64,000 nt of DNA from Desulfomicrobium escambiense DSM 10707 (GTDB taxonomy: Bacteria > Desulfobacterota > Desulfovibrionia > Desulfovibrionales > Desulfomicrobiaceae), in NCBI RefSeq assembly GCF_000428825.1, contig NZ_AUAR01000004.1, positions 1 to 64,000 on the forward strand, given 5' to 3'. The position numbers were made by a program, and so were the translations under genes. The first letter of the stretch is position 1, and every line of letters begins with the position of its first letter. The notes beneath the pieces are model-generated. The model saw nothing but the letters and a program-made list of their open reading frames with translations. It had not been told where the DNA came from and searched no databases. Positions 1 to 64,000 of the stretch are shown here, piece by piece.

Positions 1-336
1 CAACGGACCTGAGTTCGTGTCGAAGGCGCTGCTCAAATGGGCGGCTCGGGAGTCTCTGGATTTGGCGCTGATTGAGCCTGGGAAGCCATGGCAGAACGGT
101 TTGAACGAGAGTTTTAACGGCAAATTTCGCGACGAATGTCTGTCGATGGAATGGTTCCGGTGTCGGGCCGAGGCGCGGGTTGTGATCGAGGAATGGAGGC
201 GGCACTACAACTCCGTTCGCCCGCATTCAAGCCTGAACAACATGACGCCAGAACATTTCTGTCGGCAGTATGGAAAAAACATGAACCGTGGGGAAACCCT
301 CAAGAATTGAGTGGTCCGAAGTTTCCCGGCAGGTCA
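1..336 (+). mobile_element. Right end of an IS3-family insertion sequence (left part outside window)
   Basis: The window opens inside a transposase and the element appears to end at about 336, where the terminal sequence read inward from the right begins TGACCTGCCGGGAAAC. IS3-family ends of the IS407 type often start TGACCTGCC, and the end lies 26 bp after the transposase stop, as expected. The left end, and so any target duplication, is outside the window. The element sits inside the leftward STAND NTPase gene, whose reading frame runs on into the IS and stops at 227. Confidence 0.75.
2..310 (+). CDS. IS3-family transposase OrfB, C-terminal fragment (5' end outside window)
   Basis: This is the C-terminal ~102 residues of a DDE (rve core) integrase. 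The first codons read NGPEF; the single C before them would be the last base of an Asp codon in the usual DNGPEF motif. The catalytic Glu is in the block GLNESFNGKFRDECL, followed by the typical ending RRHYNSVRPHSSLNNMTPE. The stop is at 308-310. The start and the first catalytic Asp are left of the window, so an intact transposase cannot be confirmed. Confidence 0.9.
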   Translation, partial: NGPEFVSKALLKWAARESLDLALIEPGKPWQNGLNESFNGKFRDECLSMEWFRCRAEARVVIEEWRRHYNSVRPHSSLNNMTPEHFCRQYGKNMNRGETLKN

Positions 337-55634: not shown

Positions 55635-56023
55635 GGTCGCTCCTTTTTCTCGGGGTGGTGGTTCCGTTCGGCATTTAGAAAGGTTCGTGCCAGAATGGTT
55701 CGAGACATGGTGGTGACGGAGGGGAAAGTTTGTACGCCTAAAATTAATATGGTATTTTGATGTGTTACTTATCTCGTCCCGCCGTGTCTGCGCCCGGACG
55801 AAATTGACGCGACCGCGTCATGCGCAGGATTGTGCAGTTGTCATGCAATATAAGTTGTCAGCGATGAAACTTCTTCCGGCGCGGCAGGCCGCCGCAGGTG
55901 AGGCGGCGTATGGCAAATAAAGTTGCTCAAGCAATTTTTCTTGCAACACAAAAATTTCCGATGGTGTTGACAGGTCTGTTCGGCAGGATTATTTTGAACA
56001 TAATTTCAAATTGAGGGGGTTCG
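55635..56023. other. 389-bp divergent intergenic region
   Basis: Divergent promoters lie here. A 16-bp palindrome TGACGCGACCGCGTCA (55805-55820, two-base centre) is an operator candidate for the liv set; a hairpin GCCGCC...GGCGGC lies at about 55889-55907. TTGCTCAAGCAA-like and TTGCAAC motifs occur at 55923-55956, just before the DUF134 promoter. No gene is supported. Confidence 0.5.
55967..55995 (+). promoter_or_regulatory. Sigma-70 promoter of ORP locus B
   Basis: TTGACA (55967-55972), a 17-bp spacer, and TATTTT (55990-55995) precede the GTG start by about 28 bp. Unlike locus A no -24/-12 site is visible. Confidence 0.75.
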
Positions 56024-56563
56024 GTGGGACGCAGGAGAAAGTGCAGGTTCGTGGCCGACGTGCCCGAAGTCACGGTGTTCAAGCCCGTGGGGATTCCCAT
56101 GTCGCAGCTGTACGGCGTGGTGCTCGGCCTGGACGGTTTCGAGGCCTTGCGCCTGGTGGACGGGGAAGGCCTGAGCCAGGAGGAGGCGGCCGCCCGCATG
56201 CAGGTTTCCCGCCCCACGCTGTGCCGCATCCTGGGCGAGGCCCGGGGGCAGGTGGCCAGGGCGCTGTCGCGCGGCTGGGCCATCCGCATCGAGGTCGACG
56301 TGGAGCACGCCGTGACCAATGGAAAGGAACAGGACATTTCGGAGCCGCAGTGCGCGCGGTCGCAGGTCTGCGGCGGCGGCCGGGCTCAAGGAGGACGATC
56401 ATGCCGGGACAGAGAGGACAAGGTGGAGCAGGACGTGGCCAGGGCGGCGGAGGTCGCGGCCAGGGCGGTTGCGGACGCGGTCAGGGCGGTGCAGGACAGG
56501 GCGGCGCAGGACGGGGCGGCGGTTGCCGCGGACAGCGGCCGGGTGCCGGGGCGGGAGGCGTAG
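56024..56563 (+). CDS. DUF134 helix-turn-helix protein
   Basis: A 179-residue protein in its open frame, GTG start with GAGGGGG 4-5 bp upstream. Residues 1-100 are a DUF134 domain: MGRRRKCRFVADVPEVTVFKP, then an HTH with LSQEEAAARMQVSRPTLCRIL. This family is thought to be DNA-binding. After about 115 residues the frame becomes Ala-rich and overlaps the Gly-rich gene at 56401; the true end may be earlier if there is a frameshift. It opens ORP locus B. Confidence 0.8.
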   Translation: MGRRRKCRFVADVPEVTVFKPVGIPMSQLYGVVLGLDGFEALRLVDGEGLSQEEAAARMQVSRPTLCRILGEARGQVARALSRGWAIRIEVDVEHAVTNGKEQDISEPQCARSQVCGGGRAQGGRSCRDREDKVEQDVARAAEVAARAVADAVRAVQDRAAQDGAAVAADSGRVPGREA

Positions 56564-56682
56564 GGGCCGGTCAGACCGGAGGCGGACTGGGCCGCGCGCG
56601 GCGCGACGGTTCGTGCCTGACCGACGGCCCTGCCCAGGATTCTTCGGCCGGGGGTGTTGACACGGCCAAGACGGAGGAATAA
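56401..56682 (+). CDS. Gly-rich small protein overlapping the DUF134 gene
   Basis: A 93-residue protein rich in GQGG/GRG repeats with three Cys and an Asp/Glu tail. A near-ideal AAGGAGG stands 6 bp before the ATG, which supports real translation. For 163 bp it shares DNA with the DUF134 frame (GGC glycine codons here read as Ala codons there). Small Gly-rich proteins of this type often accompany NifX/MinD loci. Function unknown. Confidence 0.65.
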   Translation: MPGQRGQGGAGRGQGGGGRGQGGCGRGQGGAGQGGAGRGGGCRGQRPGAGAGGVGAGQTGGGLGRARRDGSCLTDGPAQDSSAGGVDTAKTEE

Positions 56683-56710
56683 TCGCTCGTTTGAGCAAAA
56701 TGGAGGAGCC

Positions 56711-57403
56711 GTGCCACGACCCAGGAAATGTCGCCGCATCGAAGGATGCCCCAAAGCGTGTTTTTTCAAACCCCAGGGGATTCCCCTGACGGAGCTGGCC
56801 GAGGTCTACATGACCATGGACGGTTTCGAGTCCCTTCGTCTGGCCGACTACCAAGGCCTGACCATGGAGGAGGGCGCCGCCAGGATGCATGTCTCCAGGC
56901 ACACGTTCGGGCGCATTCTGGGCGATGCCCGCCGGGCCGTGGCCCGGGCTCTCGTGGACGGACTGGCTCTGCACATCGCCCATGATGCCCAGACGCCGTG
57001 TATGCACCAGTATCCGGACCGTCTTGCGGCCCGCAGCAAGGAGCTTTGTATGACCAAGATCGCCATCACCAGTGAAGGCCCGAAGATGACGGACCGCGTG
57101 GACCCTCGTTTCGGCCGGGCCGGGGGATTCGTGGTCGTGGACGTCGAGACCATGGCCTCGACCTACGTCGATAACGGCAGTTCCCAGTCCATGTCCCACG
57201 GGGCCGGAATCCAGGCCGCCGAGAACATCATCAACGCCGGCGCCTCGGTGCTGCTGACGGGCAGCGTCGGCCCCAAGGCCTTTTCGGCCCTCAAGGCCGG
57301 CGGGGTGAAGATCGGACACAACATGGGCGGCATGACCGTGGCCGAGGCCGTGGAGGCGTTCAAGTCGGGCAAGGTCGAATACACCGATTCCCCAAACAGA
57401 TAG
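56711..57403 (+). CDS. DUF134-NifX fusion protein
   Basis: A 230-residue protein starting at GTG (VPRPRKCRRIEG) with GGAGGA upstream. Residues 1-100 form a second DUF134 domain (HTH: LTMEEGAARMHVSRHTFGRIL); after a Met/Thr linker the C-terminal ~115 residues are a NifX/orange-protein fold (MTKIAITSEGPKMTDRVDPRFGRAGGF, NAGASVLLTGSVGPKAFSAL). The fusion joins a DNA-binding domain to a metal-cluster-binding domain, suggesting a metal or redox sensor. Confidence 0.85.
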   Translation: MPRPRKCRRIEGCPKACFFKPQGIPLTELAEVYMTMDGFESLRLADYQGLTMEEGAARMHVSRHTFGRILGDARRAVARALVDGLALHIAHDAQTPCMHQYPDRLAARSKELCMTKIAITSEGPKMTDRVDPRFGRAGGFVVVDVETMASTYVDNGSSQSMSHGAGIQAAENIINAGASVLLTGSVGPKAFSALKAGGVKIGHNMGGMTVAEAVEAFKSGKVEYTDSPNR

Positions 57404-57412
57404 GGTGACATC

Positions 57413-58282
57413 ATGATCGTATCGGTTGCCAGCGGCAAGGGCGGCACGGGCAAGACAACGGTTACGGCCTCGTTGGCCGTGACCTGGCCCAATCCTCTCA
57501 TGGCCGTGGATCTGGATGTGGAAGAGCCCAACCTGCACCTGTTTCTGAAGCCCGAGGCCACGGGGTCGGAGGTCGTGACCCTCGAGGTCCCCGACGTGGA
57601 CGAGTCCAAGTGCACGTTCTGCCGCAAGTGCGCCGAGCTGTGCCAGTTCAAGGCCATCGCCGTCATGGGCAAGGCCATCATGACCTTCCCCGAGATGTGC
57701 CACGGCTGCGGCGGGTGCATGGCCATCTGCCCCGAAGGGGCCATCGGCGTGGCCACGCGCGAGCTCGGCGTCATGGAGTTCGGCGTCTCGCGCGGGCGGA
57801 TTCCCTGCACGACCGGACGGCTGCGCGTGGGAGAGGCCATGAGCCCGCCACTCATGCGCGTCGTGCGCTCGCACATGCGCGCCGAGGCCCGTGCCAAGGG
57901 GCTGGACGTGCTCGTCGACGCCCCTCCCGGCGTGAGCTGCCCGGCCATGAGCGCCGTGGCCGACAGCGACGTCATCGTGCTCGTGACCGAGCCCACGCCC
58001 TTCGGCTTCCATGATTTCAAGCTCGCCTGCGAGGCTTTCGCGCCCTACGGCAAGCCCATGGCCGTGGTCATCAACCGCGCCGGGCTGGGCGACGACCGCG
58101 TCTACGGATTCTGTGCGGCGCGCAACCTGCCCATCGTGGCCGAGATTCCCTATCGCCGCGACATCGCCGAGCACTATTCCAAAGGGCTGGTGCTGGCCGA
58201 GATGGACCAGGGCCTTGGCCAGCTGTTCTCCGGCCTGGCCGCGAAACTGATGGCCATGGGCAAGGAGGCCGATCATGCGTGA
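57413..58282 (+). CDS. MinD-family ATPase with inserted 2[4Fe-4S] ferredoxin domain (1)
   Basis: A 289-residue P-loop ATPase: deviant Walker A ASGKGGTGKTT, with two ferredoxin motifs inserted after about residue 62 (CTFCRKCAELC, CHGCGGCMAICP), then DAPPGVSCPAM. Such 'MinD superfamily P-loop ATPase with ferredoxin' pairs are part of ORP loci in D. vulgaris. It overlaps the next paralogue by 8 bp. Confidence 0.92.
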   Translation: MIVSVASGKGGTGKTTVTASLAVTWPNPLMAVDLDVEEPNLHLFLKPEATGSEVVTLEVPDVDESKCTFCRKCAELCQFKAIAVMGKAIMTFPEMCHGCGGCMAICPEGAIGVATRELGVMEFGVSRGRIPCTTGRLRVGEAMSPPLMRVVRSHMRAEARAKGLDVLVDAPPGVSCPAMSAVADSDVIVLVTEPTPFGFHDFKLACEAFAPYGKPMAVVINRAGLGDDRVYGFCAARNLPIVAEIPYRRDIAEHYSKGLVLAEMDQGLGQLFSGLAAKLMAMGKEADHA

Positions 58283-59147
58283 GATAGTCGTCATCAGCGG
58301 CAAGGGCGGCACGGGCAAGACCTCCATCACTGCGGCCTTCGCCCACCTGGCCGAAAGCAAGGTCATCTGCGACCTGGATGTGGACGCGCCCGACCTGCAT
58401 CTGCTCCTCGACCCGGCGGTGGTCCGGGAAGAGGCCTTCATCTCGGGGCACGAAGCGGTCATCGACCCGGAAAAGTGCGTGGGTTGCGGCCTGTGCGCTT
58501 CCATGTGCCGGTACGACGCCATCGACCCCGATGGGGACGTCTACCGCATCGCGCCCCTGCGTTGCGAGGGCTGCAAGGTCTGCGTGGCCTTCTGTCCCGA
58601 GCAGGCCATCGATTTCCCCGACAGGCACTGCGGACAGCGCTTCCTGAGCGACACCCGCTTCGGGCCCATGGTCCACGCCCAGCTCTTTCCCGGACAGGAG
58701 AACTCCGGCCTTCTGGTTTCGCGCCTGAAAAAGGAGGCGCGCGTTCTGGCCGAAGAGCGCGGCCTGGACCTCATCCTCTGCGACGGCGCTCCGGGCATCG
58801 GCTGCCCGGTCATCGCCTCCCTGTCCCAGACGGACCTGGCCGTGGTGGTCACGGAGCCCACCCCATCCGGCGTGCACGACCTGGAGCGTGTGGCCGGGCT
58901 GTGCGACCATTTCCGCACCAAGGTCGCCGTCATCATCAACAAACACGACCTCAATCCCGAGCATGCGGGTAGGATTGATGCATTGTGCTCGGAAAAGGGA
59001 TACAGCCTGTTGGCTCGTCTGCCCCACGACACGGCGGTCACCGAGGCCATGGTGCGTCGCCAGGCCGTGACCGAGGGGCCCGACAGCGAGATCGCCCGGA
59101 ACATCCGGGAGGCGTGGCTCAAAATCACGGATCTTTTGCACTCGTAA
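58275..59147 (+). CDS. MinD-family ATPase with inserted 2[4Fe-4S] ferredoxin domain (2)
   Basis: A 290-residue paralogue of the preceding gene: ISGKGGTGKTS, CVGCGLCASMC, CEGCKVCVAFCP, DGAPGIGCPVI. The pair probably forms a heterodimer that couples ATP hydrolysis to Fe-S or metal cluster handling. Confidence 0.92.
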   Translation: MREIVVISGKGGTGKTSITAAFAHLAESKVICDLDVDAPDLHLLLDPAVVREEAFISGHEAVIDPEKCVGCGLCASMCRYDAIDPDGDVYRIAPLRCEGCKVCVAFCPEQAIDFPDRHCGQRFLSDTRFGPMVHAQLFPGQENSGLLVSRLKKEARVLAEERGLDLILCDGAPGIGCPVIASLSQTDLAVVVTEPTPSGVHDLERVAGLCDHFRTKVAVIINKHDLNPEHAGRIDALCSEKGYSLLARLPHDTAVTEAMVRRQAVTEGPDSEIARNIREAWLKITDLLHS

Positions 59148-59175: not shown

Positions 59176-59553
59176 ATGGAAAAGTTCAGAATTGCGGTCC
59201 CCTCGGCAGCGCCCGGCGGGCTTGAAGCGGAAGTCGGCGCCCATTTCGGGCACTGCGACGTTTACACCATCGTCGATGTGGAGAACGGCAACGTGGCCCA
59301 GGTCGGCATCCTGCCCAACGTGCCTCACGAGCAGGGCGGCTGCATGGCTCCGGTCCAGCACCTGGCCAGCAACGGCGTGAACCTGCTCATCGCCGGCGGC
59401 ATGGGCATGCGCCCGCTCATGGGCTTCAACCAGGTGGGCATCGACGTCTTCTACGGCGCCGGCGCACCCAATGTCGGCACGGCCGTCGACGCCTTGCTCA
59501 AGGGCGCTTTGGTCCGCTTCACCCAGGAATACACCTGCGGCGGCGGGCACTAG
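59176..59553 (+). CDS. NifX-family dinitrogenase iron-molybdenum cofactor protein
   Basis: A 125-residue NifX/orange-protein fold: FRIAVPSAAPGGLEAEVGAHFGHCDVYTIVDV, HEQGGCMAPVQHLA and a C-terminal Cys (YTCGGGH). It lies 28 bp after the MinD pair and is followed by a terminator, so it ends the main transcript of locus B. Confidence 0.9.
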   Translation: MEKFRIAVPSAAPGGLEAEVGAHFGHCDVYTIVDVENGNVAQVGILPNVPHEQGGCMAPVQHLASNGVNLLIAGGMGMRPLMGFNQVGIDVFYGAGAPNVGTAVDALLKGALVRFTQEYTCGGGH

Positions 59554-60105: not shown

Positions 60106-60525
60106 TCAGTTGTACTCGTTCATGGCCGCGTCGGCGTAGGTGTCCTCGAGGACCTTGCGCAGACGGAAGGCGCCTTCGATCATGGGGGCCAGCTTGGGCA
60201 GGCCGTCGATCTTGTCGACGTAGCTGAAGGCTCCCAGGACTTCGCCCATGCGGCGGGTCTCCTCGCTGCCGTGGCCGGTGAAGAGCACGACCTGGATCTT
60301 GGCGTTGATCTCCTTGATACGCTTCAGGGTCTCGATGCCGTCGATGCCGGGCATCTCGATGTCCAGGACCACGACGTCGTAATTACCCTTGCGGACCATT
60401 TCCAGGGCTTCGTCGCCGGTGTGGGCCACGTCCGGGGAAATGCCGTACAGGATATTCAGACGGTCGGCGAGGATCCGGCACAGATCCTTCTCGTCGTCCA
60501 CGATCAGCAGCTTCATCTTGTTCAT
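60106..60525 (-). CDS. Single-domain response regulator (CheY-like, extended)
   Basis: A 139-residue receiver: MNKMKLLIVDDEKDL, phospho-Asp in VVVLDIEMPGIDG, Thr in VVLFTGHGSEE and Lys in YVDKIDG. The ending carries a short helical tail. ATG overlaps the hybrid kinase stop (ATGA). No output domain. Confidence 0.95.
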   Translation of the reverse strand: MNKMKLLIVDDEKDLCRILADRLNILYGISPDVAHTGDEALEMVRKGNYDVVVLDIEMPGIDGIETLKRIKEINAKIQVVLFTGHGSEETRRMGEVLGAFSYVDKIDGLPKLAPMIEGAFRLRKVLEDTYADAAMNEYN

Positions 60526-61694
60526 ATTTTCTCCTCCTTGGCAGATGCCGGACTTCCCGGCCCGTTGTTTTCGTTGTGCGCATGCACGGCCATGGGCACC
60601 CGTATGGTGAAGGTCGACCCGTGCCCAGGGGAACTGTGCACGTTGATGCCCCCTCCCATGGCCTCGATGATGCCATGGCAGATTGCCAGCCCCAATCCAA
60701 TTCCCTTGCCCACCTCCTTGGTGGAGAAAAAGGGTTCGAAAATTCGCGTCAGCAGATGCTCCTCGATGCCGCAGCCCGTGTCCCGGACCGTGACCTCCAT
60801 CCGGGCGTCGGCGCAAACGCCCCGCAGGGTCAGGACGGGTGCGGCAGCGCCCGGGGCGTCCGCGGCGTTCGTGTTCTCCATGGCGTCCAGGGCGTTGTCG
60901 ATGACGTTAGCCAGGACCTGGCCCCATTCCGACTCCGGTATGTCCACGGCGCTCAGGGCCGGGGTCCATTCCTGGACGATCTCCACCCCCAGGGCTTCGA
61001 TCCGCTTGCGGCGCTCGGCCAGCAGCCTCCGGGCCAGGAGCGGCAGCTTCGTGGTTGCGCCCTTGGCGTCAAGGGCGCAGCGCAGCGTCAGCAGTTTCGA
61101 GGTGATGGCCTTGCAGCGCCCGGCCTGGTGCCGGATCAGTTCGAGGGATGACCGGAGGTCCGCACGGTTGGCCTCGGTCAAGTCCGGTTCGCGCAGGATC
61201 TCCTCGATCCAGCCCGCCTCGTTGATCATGACCTGCAGGGGGTTGTTGATCTCGTGGGCCACCCCTGTGGCCAGTTCGCCCATCGCGGCCAGCTTGGCCG
61301 TTTCGGTCATGCGCTGCCTGGAGAGGGCCTCCATGTGCCGCCCCTCCGCATCGCCGATGGCCGCGACCAGCGTGTCGATGTCGGCGGGCTTGGTCAGGTA
61401 GTCCCTGGCTCCTCCCTTCATGCCGGCCACGGCCGTGTTCAGGGTCGAGTCGGCCGTGAGCAGGATGACTTCCGGGCCCGGCCTTTCGGCCTTGAGGGCG
61501 CCGAGGGTCTCCAGGCCGCTCATGCCCGGCATGGTGATGTCGAGGACCACGACTTCGGGGTGCAGCGCGCGCGCCATCTCAAGGGCCTGCTCTCCGCCGT
61601 AGGCCGTGTGCACGTCCATGCCCCTGGCACGCAGCCTTTCGGACAGCAGATCCGCGAAATCGCGTTCGTCGTCGACCACCAGTACATGGACCAT
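60522..61694 (-). CDS. Receiver-histidine kinase (REC-HisKA-HATPase)
   Basis: A 390-residue cytoplasmic kinase with an N-terminal receiver (VHVLVVDDERDF, VVVLDITMPGMSG, DYLTKPAD), then HisKA GVAHEINNPLQVMI and HATPase (DNALDAM, DTGCGIEEH, GIGLGLAICHG). The receiver first, kinase second order suggests an intermediate in a relay. Flanked by single-domain receivers on both sides. Confidence 0.93.
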   Translation of the reverse strand: MVHVLVVDDERDFADLLSERLRARGMDVHTAYGGEQALEMARALHPEVVVLDITMPGMSGLETLGALKAERPGPEVILLTADSTLNTAVAGMKGGARDYLTKPADIDTLVAAIGDAEGRHMEALSRQRMTETAKLAAMGELATGVAHEINNPLQVMINEAGWIEEILREPDLTEANRADLRSSLELIRHQAGRCKAITSKLLTLRCALDAKGATTKLPLLARRLLAERRKRIEALGVEIVQEWTPALSAVDIPESEWGQVLANVIDNALDAMENTNAADAPGAAAPVLTLRGVCADARMEVTVRDTGCGIEEHLLTRIFEPFFSTKEVGKGIGLGLAICHGIIEAMGGGINVHSSPGHGSTFTIRVPMAVHAHNENNGPGSPASAKEEKI

Positions 61695-61700
61695 GCGAAC

Positions 61701-62081
61701 CTACCTGCCGGGCGCGTGTCCCTGGGTCACCGTGCGGATGCTTTCGAGCAGATCCTCGATGTCCAGGGGTTTTTTGTGATAGCGGGCCGCGCCGAGATTC
61801 AGGCAGGCCTCGAAATCCTGGTCCGAGCCGTGTCCGCTGAGCATGATCACGGGCAGTCCCGGCCATGCGCCACGGATGCGCCGCAGGGTCTCCAGGCCGC
61901 TCATGCCCGGCATGCGCAGGTCCAGCACGACCACGTCGGGTGGATCCTGGGCGATGAGGTCCAGACCGCTCTGGCCGTCCAGGGCGACCCTGGCCGCAAA
62001 GCCCCGCATTTCCAGGCGTTCCTGGAGCGTGGTCACGAAGGCCTCTTCGTCGTCGATGAGCAGAATGTTCAGGGCGTCCAT
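61701..62081 (-). CDS. Single-domain response regulator
   Basis: A 126-residue receiver: NILLIDDEEAF, VVVLDLRMPGMSG, MLSGHGSDQ and YHKKPLDIEDLL. No output domain; it sits 5 bp after the kinase-like gene and 6 bp before the receiver-kinase. Start MDALN chosen by AGGA upstream. Confidence 0.92.
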   Translation of the reverse strand: MDALNILLIDDEEAFVTTLQERLEMRGFAARVALDGQSGLDLIAQDPPDVVVLDLRMPGMSGLETLRRIRGAWPGLPVIMLSGHGSDQDFEACLNLGAARYHKKPLDIEDLLESIRTVTQGHAPGR

Positions 62082-62086
62082 GGCGT

Positions 62087-62719
62087 TCAATCCTGACGTG
62101 AAACGGGAAAGAAGATTTTGAGCCGCGCGCCGTCCCACTCCATCCGGCCCTGTTCGAGCAGCGCGTTCAGGTCACTCAGGCCGGACAGGTCAGGGGTGGT
62201 CCCGCTGGGCGGCGCGACGTTCAGCACGTGGAAATCCGGCCCCTCGTCAATCCAGAGGCGGATCACGCAGTCCTTGGCGCCGTTCCCGACGGCCCACTGC
62301 ACGGCCCTGAAGCCGGCCATGAGGACCCAGATGGCGCCGACGGCCACGGGCAGGACCCTGGTAGCCGGGGTGAACTCGACGGACGCGCCCTTGAGGCGCA
62401 CCATGCGCTCGGAGAGCAGGGCCAGGGTCCGAGCGTGCACGCCCAGATCGCAGGCTTCGAGCATGTCCGCGTCAGCGGAGTGGGCCAGTCGGCTGGTGGC
62501 TTCCAGAAGCCCCTTGCCGCGGTCGACCTGGGACGAGATGTGCCCGAGGGTCCGTTCCAGGGTGGGCTTGTGCTTGAAGTCCACCCTGGCGTTGACCTTC
62601 ATGATGTCGCCCAGAAGGCCTGCCGACTCGCGGATGATGGCCAGGATGTTCTGCATCTCGTGCATGCTCATGGCCGTGACCGTCCCCATGAACCGTGTTT
62701 CGCGGGCGACTTCAGGCAT
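62087..62719 (-). CDS. Histidine kinase-like protein without recognisable ATP-binding motifs
   Basis: A 210-residue protein with a DHp-like N-terminal half (SMHEMQNILAIIRESAGLL, candidate phospho-His in HEMQN), then a C-terminal half of ATPase-like size but without the N, G1 or G2 boxes. It may be a phosphotransfer or dimerisation partner (Hpt-like role) rather than a kinase. It overlaps the receiver gene at 62712-62719 by 8 bp. Confidence 0.7.
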   Translation of the reverse strand: MPEVARETRFMGTVTAMSMHEMQNILAIIRESAGLLGDIMKVNARVDFKHKPTLERTLGHISSQVDRGKGLLEATSRLAHSADADMLEACDLGVHARTLALLSERMVRLKGASVEFTPATRVLPVAVGAIWVLMAGFRAVQWAVGNGAKDCVIRLWIDEGPDFHVLNVAPPSGTTPDLSGLSDLNALLEQGRMEWDGARLKIFFPVSRQD

Positions 62720-63104
62720 GGTGCGTTCCTTGGCCGGCGGCGACCGCTTCCGAGAGGGTGCGGATGAGCTCCTCGATGTCGAGGGGCTTGGTCAGGTAGG
62801 CGAAGGCGCCGTGGCGCATGCCCTCGATGCCGTCGCGGGTCTTGCCCTGGCCCGTCAGCATGACGACCTGCACGGCCGGGTGCTGCTCCCTGACGCGCTG
62901 CAGGACCTCGATGCCCTTCATGCCTGGCATCATGACGTCGAGAACCATGACGTGGGGCTCGGCGTCGGCCACGGCCTTCAGCGCCGATTCCCCGTCGTGG
63001 GCCACGCGGGCCGCGATGCCCCGGAGGTCGAGCCGTTCGGCCAGGGTGGTGACGAATTCGACCTCGTCATCGACCAGCAGGATGTTCCATTCGTTTATAT
63101 CCAT
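62712..63104 (-). CDS. Single-domain response regulator
   Basis: A 130-residue receiver: NILLVDDEVEF, VMVLDVMMPGMKG, MLTGQGKTR and YLTKPLDIEELI. Closely similar in layout to the receiver at 61701. It lies 4 bp after the kinase gene and overlaps the kinase-like gene by 8 bp. Confidence 0.93.
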   Translation of the reverse strand: MDINEWNILLVDDEVEFVTTLAERLDLRGIAARVAHDGESALKAVADAEPHVMVLDVMMPGMKGIEVLQRVREQHPAVQVVMLTGQGKTRDGIEGMRHGAFAYLTKPLDIEELIRTLSEAVAAGQGTHHA

Positions 63105-63108
63105 ATCG

Positions 63109-64000
63109 TTACCCTTCCACAGAGCGTTTGGGCAGCAGGATGGTCATGGTCGTCCCCTCGTTGAGTTTGGTCTTGACCTGGATCTCGCCGCCCAGGCGCT
63201 TGACGATGCCGTAGGTGATGGACATGCCCAGCCCCGTGCCTTTTTCCTTCTTGGTGGTGAAGAACGGTTCGAACATGTTCTTGGCGGTCTCTTCGGACAT
63301 GCCGCAGCCGTTGTCCTGGACCGAAACCCCGATGAAGCCCTCGCTCTCGTCCCACGACCTGACGACGATCTGCCCTCCGTCGGGCACCGCTGCCAGGGCG
63401 TTGTTCAGGATGTTCAGGAAGACCTGCTGGATCTGGCCGTGGTCCGTAGGGATCTGCGGGAGGTTGTGGGCCAGTTCGCGCCTGAGCTCGACGTTGCGGT
63501 ACTGGGCCTCGCGCTCCAGGAATCCCAGCGTCTCCACCAGGACCGCGTTCACGTCCAGGACCTCGATCTTGACGTCCATGCGCTTGGCGAAGCTGAGCAT
63601 GCGGTGGGTGATGCCCCTGCAGCGCTCCACGGAGCGCAGGATGGCTTCGATCTGGCGGCCGAACTTGTCCTTGTCCGGGAAGTCCGGGCGCAGGTTCATG
63701 ATGTCGCGCATGAGCCCGGCCTTCTCGTTGATGATGGCCAGGGGGTTGTTGATCTCGTGGGCCACGCCGGCCGCCAGGCGCCCGATGGAGGACAGCTTCT
63801 GCGAGTGCTCCATCTGGTGGATGGCGCCCATGCGCTGTTCGTCGCTTTCCTGCAGCCGCGAGATCAGCAGGCTCGTCACCCTGTAGACGGCCAGGAAAAT
63901 GAGGATGACGCTCGAGACGAAGATGAAGAGCAGGTCCAGGCGCACCGTGTACCATGTGCTGAAGGCCGTGGGCTTGGGCTTCACGGCGACCAGGGCGAAA
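63109..64000 (-). CDS. Membrane sensor histidine kinase, partial (5' end outside window)
   Basis: C-terminal ~295 residues of a kinase: a TM helix (LDLLFIFVSSVILIFLAVYRV), then HisKA with GRLAAGVAHEINNPLAIIN and HATPase with NNALAAV, DNGCGMSEET and GTGLGMSITYG. The frame stays open to the right edge, so an N-terminal sensor domain lies outside the window. It is the first kinase of the leftward operon. Confidence 0.92.
   Translation of the reverse strand, partial: FALVAVKPKPTAFSTWYTVRLDLLFIFVSSVILIFLAVYRVTSLLISRLQESDEQRMGAIHQMEHSQKLSSIGRLAAGVAHEINNPLAIINEKAGLMRDIMNLRPDFPDKDKFGRQIEAILRSVERCRGITHRMLSFAKRMDVKIEVLDVNAVLVETLGFLEREAQYRNVELRRELAHNLPQIPTDHGQIQQVFLNILNNALAAVPDGGQIVVRSWDESEGFIGVSVQDNGCGMSEETAKNMFEPFFTTKKEKGTGLGMSITYGIVKRLGGEIQVKTKLNEGTTMTILLPKRSVEG

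Follow-up and report, generated by a model that had tools for sequence, protein, structure and literature searches.

A DUF134–orange protein fusion gene of Desulfomicrobium escambiense with a predicted operator in its own promoter and a conserved internal start

We analyzed a 64,000-nucleotide stretch of Desulfomicrobium escambiense DSM 10707 (the window) and found a fusion gene at 56711–57403 of the plus strand that joins a DUF134 domain to an orange protein (ORP) domain. The analysis points, with good probability, to one autoregulated gene with two products: a DUF134-ORP regulator that would bind a palindrome in its own promoter and a free ORP that would be translated from an internal start codon.

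The fusion gene encodes 230 amino acids (calculated mass 24.7 kDa). Its reading frame is open from a GTG start at 56711, with GGAGG four bases 5' of the GTG; an alternative in-frame GTG is located upstream at 56654. A start codon is present at the equivalent of 56711 in 15 relatives (one codon earlier in L015). In a Pfam search, residues 3–87 (56717–56971, plus strand) matched DUF134 (PF02001) with 70.2 bits and E = 2.4e-19 (gathering cut-off 27 bits), and residues 128–218 matched Nitro_FeMo-Co with 66.6 bits and E = 2.4e-18, also above the curated Pfam cut-off. Residues 114–230 align over all 117 amino acids with chain residues 4–120 of the ORP from D. gigas (PDB-entry 2wfb; 141 bits, 58% identity). 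The predicted model of the ORP domain superimposes on 2wfb with an rmsd of 0.7 and a TM score of 0.95 by target length, corresponding to the ORP/NifX fold, and its sequence is free of Cys. The joining of DUF134 to an orange-protein/NifX fold, which the earlier note had read from the letters alone, is thus borne out by two Pfam domains above their cut-offs and by the identity to 2wfb. These matches identify the C-terminal part as a true ORP-type domain, and on grounds of homology a metal cluster in it is plausible; the cluster characteristic of ORP is the non-covalent [S2MoS2CuS2MoS2] unit.

Of the 22 genomes of the family, 15 have a full-length fusion match without an internal stop; the whole collection comprises 83 distinct fused ORFs. 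A sequencing or frame artefact is ruled out by intact relatives in many genomes. The sample was drawn from 233 genomes with an ORP match and comprised 100 further regions, 30 loci and the loci of the family; it left out G078, where the match is cut by a contig end, and matches weaker than about E = 6e-35.

The fusion gene heads an ORP gene cluster. It is followed on the plus strand by an Orp3/Orp4-like MinD-type P-loop ATPase with 4Fe-4S motifs (57413–58282), a second Orp3/Orp4-like MinD-type ATPase with 4Fe-4S motifs (58275–59147) and a separate Nitro_FeMo-Co (NifX2) protein with Cys/His motifs (59176–59553). The locus therefore has the MinD-type 4Fe-4S ATPase neighbors of an ORP operon. On its far side the cluster is adjoined by minus-strand response-regulator and histidine-kinase genes (60106–63984), two of which were checked against Pfam. 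Upstream of the fusion, a second, unfused DUF134 gene with the helix SRPTLCRIL is located at 56024–56563 (plus strand). It is preceded by a -35 element TTGACA (55967–55972, plus strand) and an inward-type palindrome TGAACATAATTTCA (55995–56008, plus strand), which in this or a near form also precedes the matching gene in L033–L036. A small Gly/Gln-rich ORF (MPGQRGQGGAG..., 56401–56682, plus strand) with AAGGAGG ahead of it overlaps the frame of this gene, which ends at 56563, in another frame, and the promoter of the fusion gene sits at its 3' end. Elsewhere in the genome, CGCCCATTTGAGCA occurs in three copies, two of them at contig ends (window 30–43; G000 C8:184387 and C24:9). Its recurrence and the copies at contig ends suggest a repeated element. 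GGCTCATTTGACCA likewise has three copies (C7, C13 and C23).

The promoter of the fusion gene contains a -35 element TTGACA (56657–56662, plus strand) and a putative operator palindrome CGCTCGTTTGAGCA (consensus TGCTCRTTTGAGCA; 56684–56697, plus strand) that overlaps the -10 region. Other DUF134 genes are preceded by TGARCATATGYTCA. With at most 2 mismatches, a palindrome of either type (outward or inward) was found in 135 of 187 distinct DUF134 upstream regions against 1 of 619 upstream regions of other ORFs, counts that are not independent, as the rows are related, and that are partly a test on the discovery set, as the motif forms were picked after viewing fusion upstreams. The single control hit has 1 mismatch; the remaining 52 of the 187 DUF134 upstream regions contain no palindrome of either type at this threshold. 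The distance from TTGAC to the palindrome is 20–32 nt, mostly 24–27 nt, in 60 of 64 outward-type upstream regions. TGARCATATGYTCA precedes DUF134 genes in records labeled Acidobacteria, Ignavibacteriae and Pseudovibrio as well. By comparison, then, the fusion gene carries a predicted operator in its own promoter, as is typical of an autoregulator. Fusions of the genus coded g52 (L130, L121, L169 and relatives) often have more than one palindrome-like site per promoter.

Genome-wide scans provide a more independent test of the operator than the comparison of upstream regions. The pattern GCTCNTTTGAGCAAAA is unique in the window's genome, where it lies at the fusion promoter. It occurs as a single copy directly before the fusion in each of the 13 fusion-bearing Desulfomicrobium genomes (13/13). 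It was not found in the three genomes of the genus that lack the fusion, of which G006 has a completeness of only 63%, and the reversed-pattern control gave 0 matches in the genomes of the genus. Within the class, 31 of 348 genomes carry a single copy of the exact 17-mer, with no match for the reversed control, and each of the 31 sites precedes a gene for ORP, the fusion or DUF134. Of these, 22 were placed by coordinates and 9 by fetched regions; the latter sites lie 30–177 nt before a DUF134 gene, two of them in opposite orientation. Looser searches of the window's genome yielded 12 matches to the outward pattern within 2 mismatches (reversed control 2), the best other one being at C8:69763 in a stretch with an ORF that is CheB-like by eye. 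A search with TGAGCATATGCTCA hit five places, each of them matching on both strands (control: 2). Within the window itself, the 3 palindrome matches at up to 3 mismatches do not exceed chance expectation. We rejected the palindrome as a general regulon site; the longer exact pattern leaves only the site at orp.

Predicted models place DUF134 close to region 4 of sigma-70 factors, with a helix-turn-helix. A VIA search with the predicted DUF134 model returned mostly sigma region-4 chains in its top rows, with middling Z values (best 7.4), and Foldseek aligned the model with region 4 of SigR (rmsd 0.7 over 47 columns, E = 0.26). The recognition helix of the fusion, SRHTFGRIL, comprises residues 62–70 (56894–56920, plus strand). 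Residue 64, with which the third helix of this sigma region-4-like fold begins in the predicted models, tracks the type of the operator. It was assigned by alignment across the 187 DUF134 genes. Where it is His or Phe, all 61 motif-bearing genes have the outward type (1 further gene has no motif); where it is Ala, Pro, Gln or Ser, all 74 motif-bearing genes have the inward type. The H-type DUF134 proteins are probably one lineage, so the link between residue 64 and the operator may represent few independent events. For DUF134 genes with the helix ARTTVQSIY (L279, L286, L289–L293 and L296–L301), no palindrome of either type was found upstream at up to 2 mismatches.

Alternatively, the palindrome could be bound by an unrelated orp regulator, with DUF134 acting elsewhere or not on DNA at all. 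The inward form TGAACATATGTTCA resembles the LexA box of some phyla, which we count in favor of this explanation. Five genomes (G113, G119, G158, G245 and G340) nevertheless keep the site 30–32 nt before a DUF134 gene, and none of the five yielded an ORP match with E ≤ 1e-20. The site also stands before DUF134 genes in the records labeled Acidobacteria, Ignavibacteriae and Pseudovibrio, and its type follows residue 64 of DUF134 itself. An unrelated regulator is therefore very unlikely in our view, even with a precedent in D. vulgaris, where DVU2106 binds palindromes in the orp promoters according to PMC3897727. DNA binding by DUF134, which the earlier note had assumed, is strongly supported by comparison: the helix-turn-helix is predicted, the palindrome recurs across phyla and its type shifts with a helix residue. 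DUF134, which is present in bacteria and archaea, would most likely be a local, self-regulating DNA-binding protein.

A group of 15 genomes of the genus coded g32 shows the same association in a different gene order. A free-standing ORP lies behind the site, with one site per genome, and a DUF134 of the SRHTFG type is present in all 15 genomes, in 14 of them roughly 3 kb further along the same strand of the same contig. This DUF134 is fused to another NifX-like domain (L273–L278, L280–L285, L287, L288 and L295), which contains Cys and His, scores 20–45 bits against the ORP profile and carries HFGRC or HFGHC motifs. The site therefore follows DUF134 despite the reshuffled gene order.

The second product would arise from a start inside the fusion frame. 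An internal Shine-Dalgarno (SD) sequence AAGGAG (57038–57043, plus strand) is located 6 nt before an in-frame ATG at codon 114. From this ATG the frame 57050–57403 (plus strand) encodes a free ORP of 117 amino acids with a calculated mass of 12.0 kDa. Every one of the 15 full-length fusions in the family retains this internal start; the SD reads AAGGA or AAGGAG in the 13 members of the genus and GGGGAGGAG and GGGGAGGGG in the other two. The linker around it is less conserved within the genus than the two domains (mean majority share 72.6% vs 88.5% and 86.7%) and varies widely among genera. The search for boundary start codons covered a few codons around the profile start and gave ATG priority. 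Of the 83 fused ORFs, 73 carry an ATG at the boundary and 9 a GTG, and for 1 no start codon was found. An SD of at least 5 nt precedes 75 of these 82 start codons, compared with 43 of the remaining 644 in-frame ATGs, so that the conserved combination of SD and start codon at the domain boundary is found in 75 of 83 DUF134-ORP fusions. Among the 8 fusions below the criterion, L044, L125, L154 and L177 have shorter SD-like stretches, and in L046, L152, L216 and L228 nothing convincing was found as an internal start. The g52 fusions have long linkers and in part a GTG as boundary codon, and L152 and L216 among them are without a convincing boundary start; L044, a neighbor of the g52 fusions in the tree, belongs to Pseudodesulfovibrio. 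In fusions of DUF134 to the other, Cys-containing NifX-like domain (NifX2), an internal SD and start is present in 1 of 15. The DUF134-NifX2 fusions L319, L320 and L322 also have one, so some lineages retain the same design in this type of fusion.

The codons at the boundary are strongly biased. The SD motif occurs in three codon phases (63, 9 and 6 of 78) that read KE, QGE or RR. At K-[E/D] boundaries, Lys is encoded by AAG in 60 of 61 cases against 505 of 752 elsewhere in the ORFs, and Glu by GAG in 45 of 45 cases against 600 of 1356 (44%). With one sequence per cluster, AAG is used in 17 of 17 cases (background 59%, P = 1.3e-4) and GAG in 14 of 14 (background 42%, P = 6e-6). Codon choice at the boundary thus shows that the DNA motif is under selection. 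When the seven codons upstream were recoded synonymously, the median p was 0.29, with 5 of 82 genes at p ≤ 0.05. This gene-by-gene test is weak because the dipeptide KE readily yields AAGGAG; in total, 75 SDs were observed where 42.4 are expected. A chance origin of the internal start is ruled out by the in-frame ATG control and the codon choice.

The same data bear on the possibility that a short ORP is a proteolysis product of the fusion and the SD-ATG a relic of a two-gene state. The linker could be cut, since residues 94–99 and 101–111 are predicted to be disordered with pLDDT under 50. Fused and separate states also interchange on the ORP tree, with 15 changes, at least 5 of them forced by well-supported branches. 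This tree has few columns and many open forks; cuts on score and length left 144 of the 157 distinct rows for it. A relic would erode, yet SD and start persist in 75 of 83 fusions despite the divergence of the linkers, through the phases KE, QGE and RR and with GTG or ATG, and GAG is exclusive at the boundary Glu codons where 44% would be usual. We regard this explanation as quite improbable.

A further argument for a free ORP comes from D. gigas. The 2wfb sequence is contained at 100% identity in a DUF134-ORP ORF of genome G272. This ORF has 242 residues, and the 2wfb sequence forms its C-terminal part. The Met of 2wfb corresponds to the internal ATG of the ORF, which has AGGAG upstream. From this Met the ORP comprises 117 amino acids with a calculated mass of 11,805 Da, which fits the approximately 11.8 kDa of the D. 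gigas ORP purified from cells. In 2wfb, a recombinant construct, three residues precede the Met; the start of this construct was thus its makers' choice and does not by itself prove the natural start. D. gigas ORP and the window's fusion have in common the fold (by prediction), the Cys-free domain and the DUF134-ORP gene layout. In the accessible literature the D. gigas protein is treated as a small one-domain protein, and the DUF134 part and the operator are not mentioned there. Genome G337 contains three ORP-type matches, one of them in a DUF134 fusion (L144).

The earlier note had described the gene as one for a possible metal-cluster-sensing transcription factor. In its simplest form only the fusion would be made, with the ORP half as cluster sensor. 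Fusion and operator are real, and the coupling of DUF134 to a NifX-like fold recurs in all 15 g32 genomes, which have a free ORP besides. The description overlooked, however, the conserved and codon-biased internal start, and the gene of the D. gigas ORP is a fusion although the protein is known as a short one. The DNA-binding part of the description stands by comparison, whereas the conserved start for a free ORP makes it probable that this is not only a transcription factor gene. We consider a fusion-only gene unlikely.

The elements of the arrangement are of known kind, namely one-component autoregulators and in-frame internal starts. ModE, IscR and SoxR also combine a DNA-binding part with a metal or cluster part, and some of them act in local autoregulation. 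Their folds differ from those of the fusion and do not include an ORP domain, and we know of no second product for them. The genes infB, cheA and clpB have in-frame internal starts that lead to two products with a common C-terminus. In contrast to these, the short product of the window's gene would be a separate metalloprotein of the complex encoded by the same operon. Apparently new, at least to us, are a predicted operator for DUF134 and a gene in which a regulator product would overlap a metalloprotein. Among open-access titles and abstract beginnings, we found none on the function of DUF134, on the DUF134-ORP fusion or on the palindromic sites.

The orp operons of D. vulgaris are among the closest known systems. 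Published work indicates that orp1/orp2 and the ORP complex (Orp3, 4, 5, 8 and 9) share with the window an ORP gene together with two MinD-type 4Fe-4S ATPases, and that Orp3 and Orp4 resemble the window's two ATPases (PMC6345978). MrpORP (Orp9) is described there as a similar fusion of an ORP-type (Nitro_FeMo-Co) domain, but its partner is an Mrp/NBP35 ATPase, whereas the partner in the window is a DNA-binding domain (PMC6345978). The D. vulgaris operons are divergent and sigma-54 dependent (PMC3897727, PMC6345978), in contrast to the window, where a palindrome overlaps the -10 region of a TTGACA promoter. They are reported to be under sigma-54, IHF and the activator DVU2106 (PMC3897727); control by DUF134 is therefore not universal.

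Based on these comparisons we propose the following model. Full-length DUF134-ORP would bind its own promoter, at the palindrome that overlaps the -10 region; binding and autoregulation are strongly supported by the conserved site and its dependence on the helix type. Because of the position of the operator over the -10 region, the regulator would most likely repress the operon. Translation would begin at the internal SD-ATG at 57050 as well and yield free ORP, the form studied from D. gigas. This start is supported by conservation and codon choice, and from these we infer its use in the organism. The free ORP would join the two downstream MinD/ferredoxin ATPases in a complex. Loading of the ORP half with a cluster, or its binding of the partner ATPases, may alter DNA binding, and the output of the operon would thereby track the supply of a Mo/Cu or Fe-S cluster. 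In the simplest case, DUF134-ORP with unloaded or ATPase-free ORP halves would sit on the operator, and loading would release it and lead to more ORP and ATPases. The opposite sign could apply as well.

In a wider and more tentative form, which we put forward as possible but doubtful in its entirety, ORP would be the sensor of its operon. A single mRNA would yield cluster-loaded free ORP and DUF134-ORP at a constant ratio; the two would share or compete for the Mo/Cu or Fe-S cluster and the MinD-type ATPases, and DNA binding at one site per genome would thereby report the cluster supply. DUF134 proteins would then be widespread palindrome-binding regulators of metallocluster operons of the NifX/ORP type, with the type of operator set by one residue of the recognition helix.

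A 2019 review notes that it is still not known what the orange protein, with its Mo/Cu cluster, does (PMC6650914). The present results show a physical and a genetic tie between ORP and a DNA-binding domain whose predicted operator is defined. An in-frame second start of this kind is easily hidden by gene annotation. DUF134, a domain of unknown function, gains a predicted binding site, and a role of ORP as a regulatory sensor becomes accessible to a direct test.
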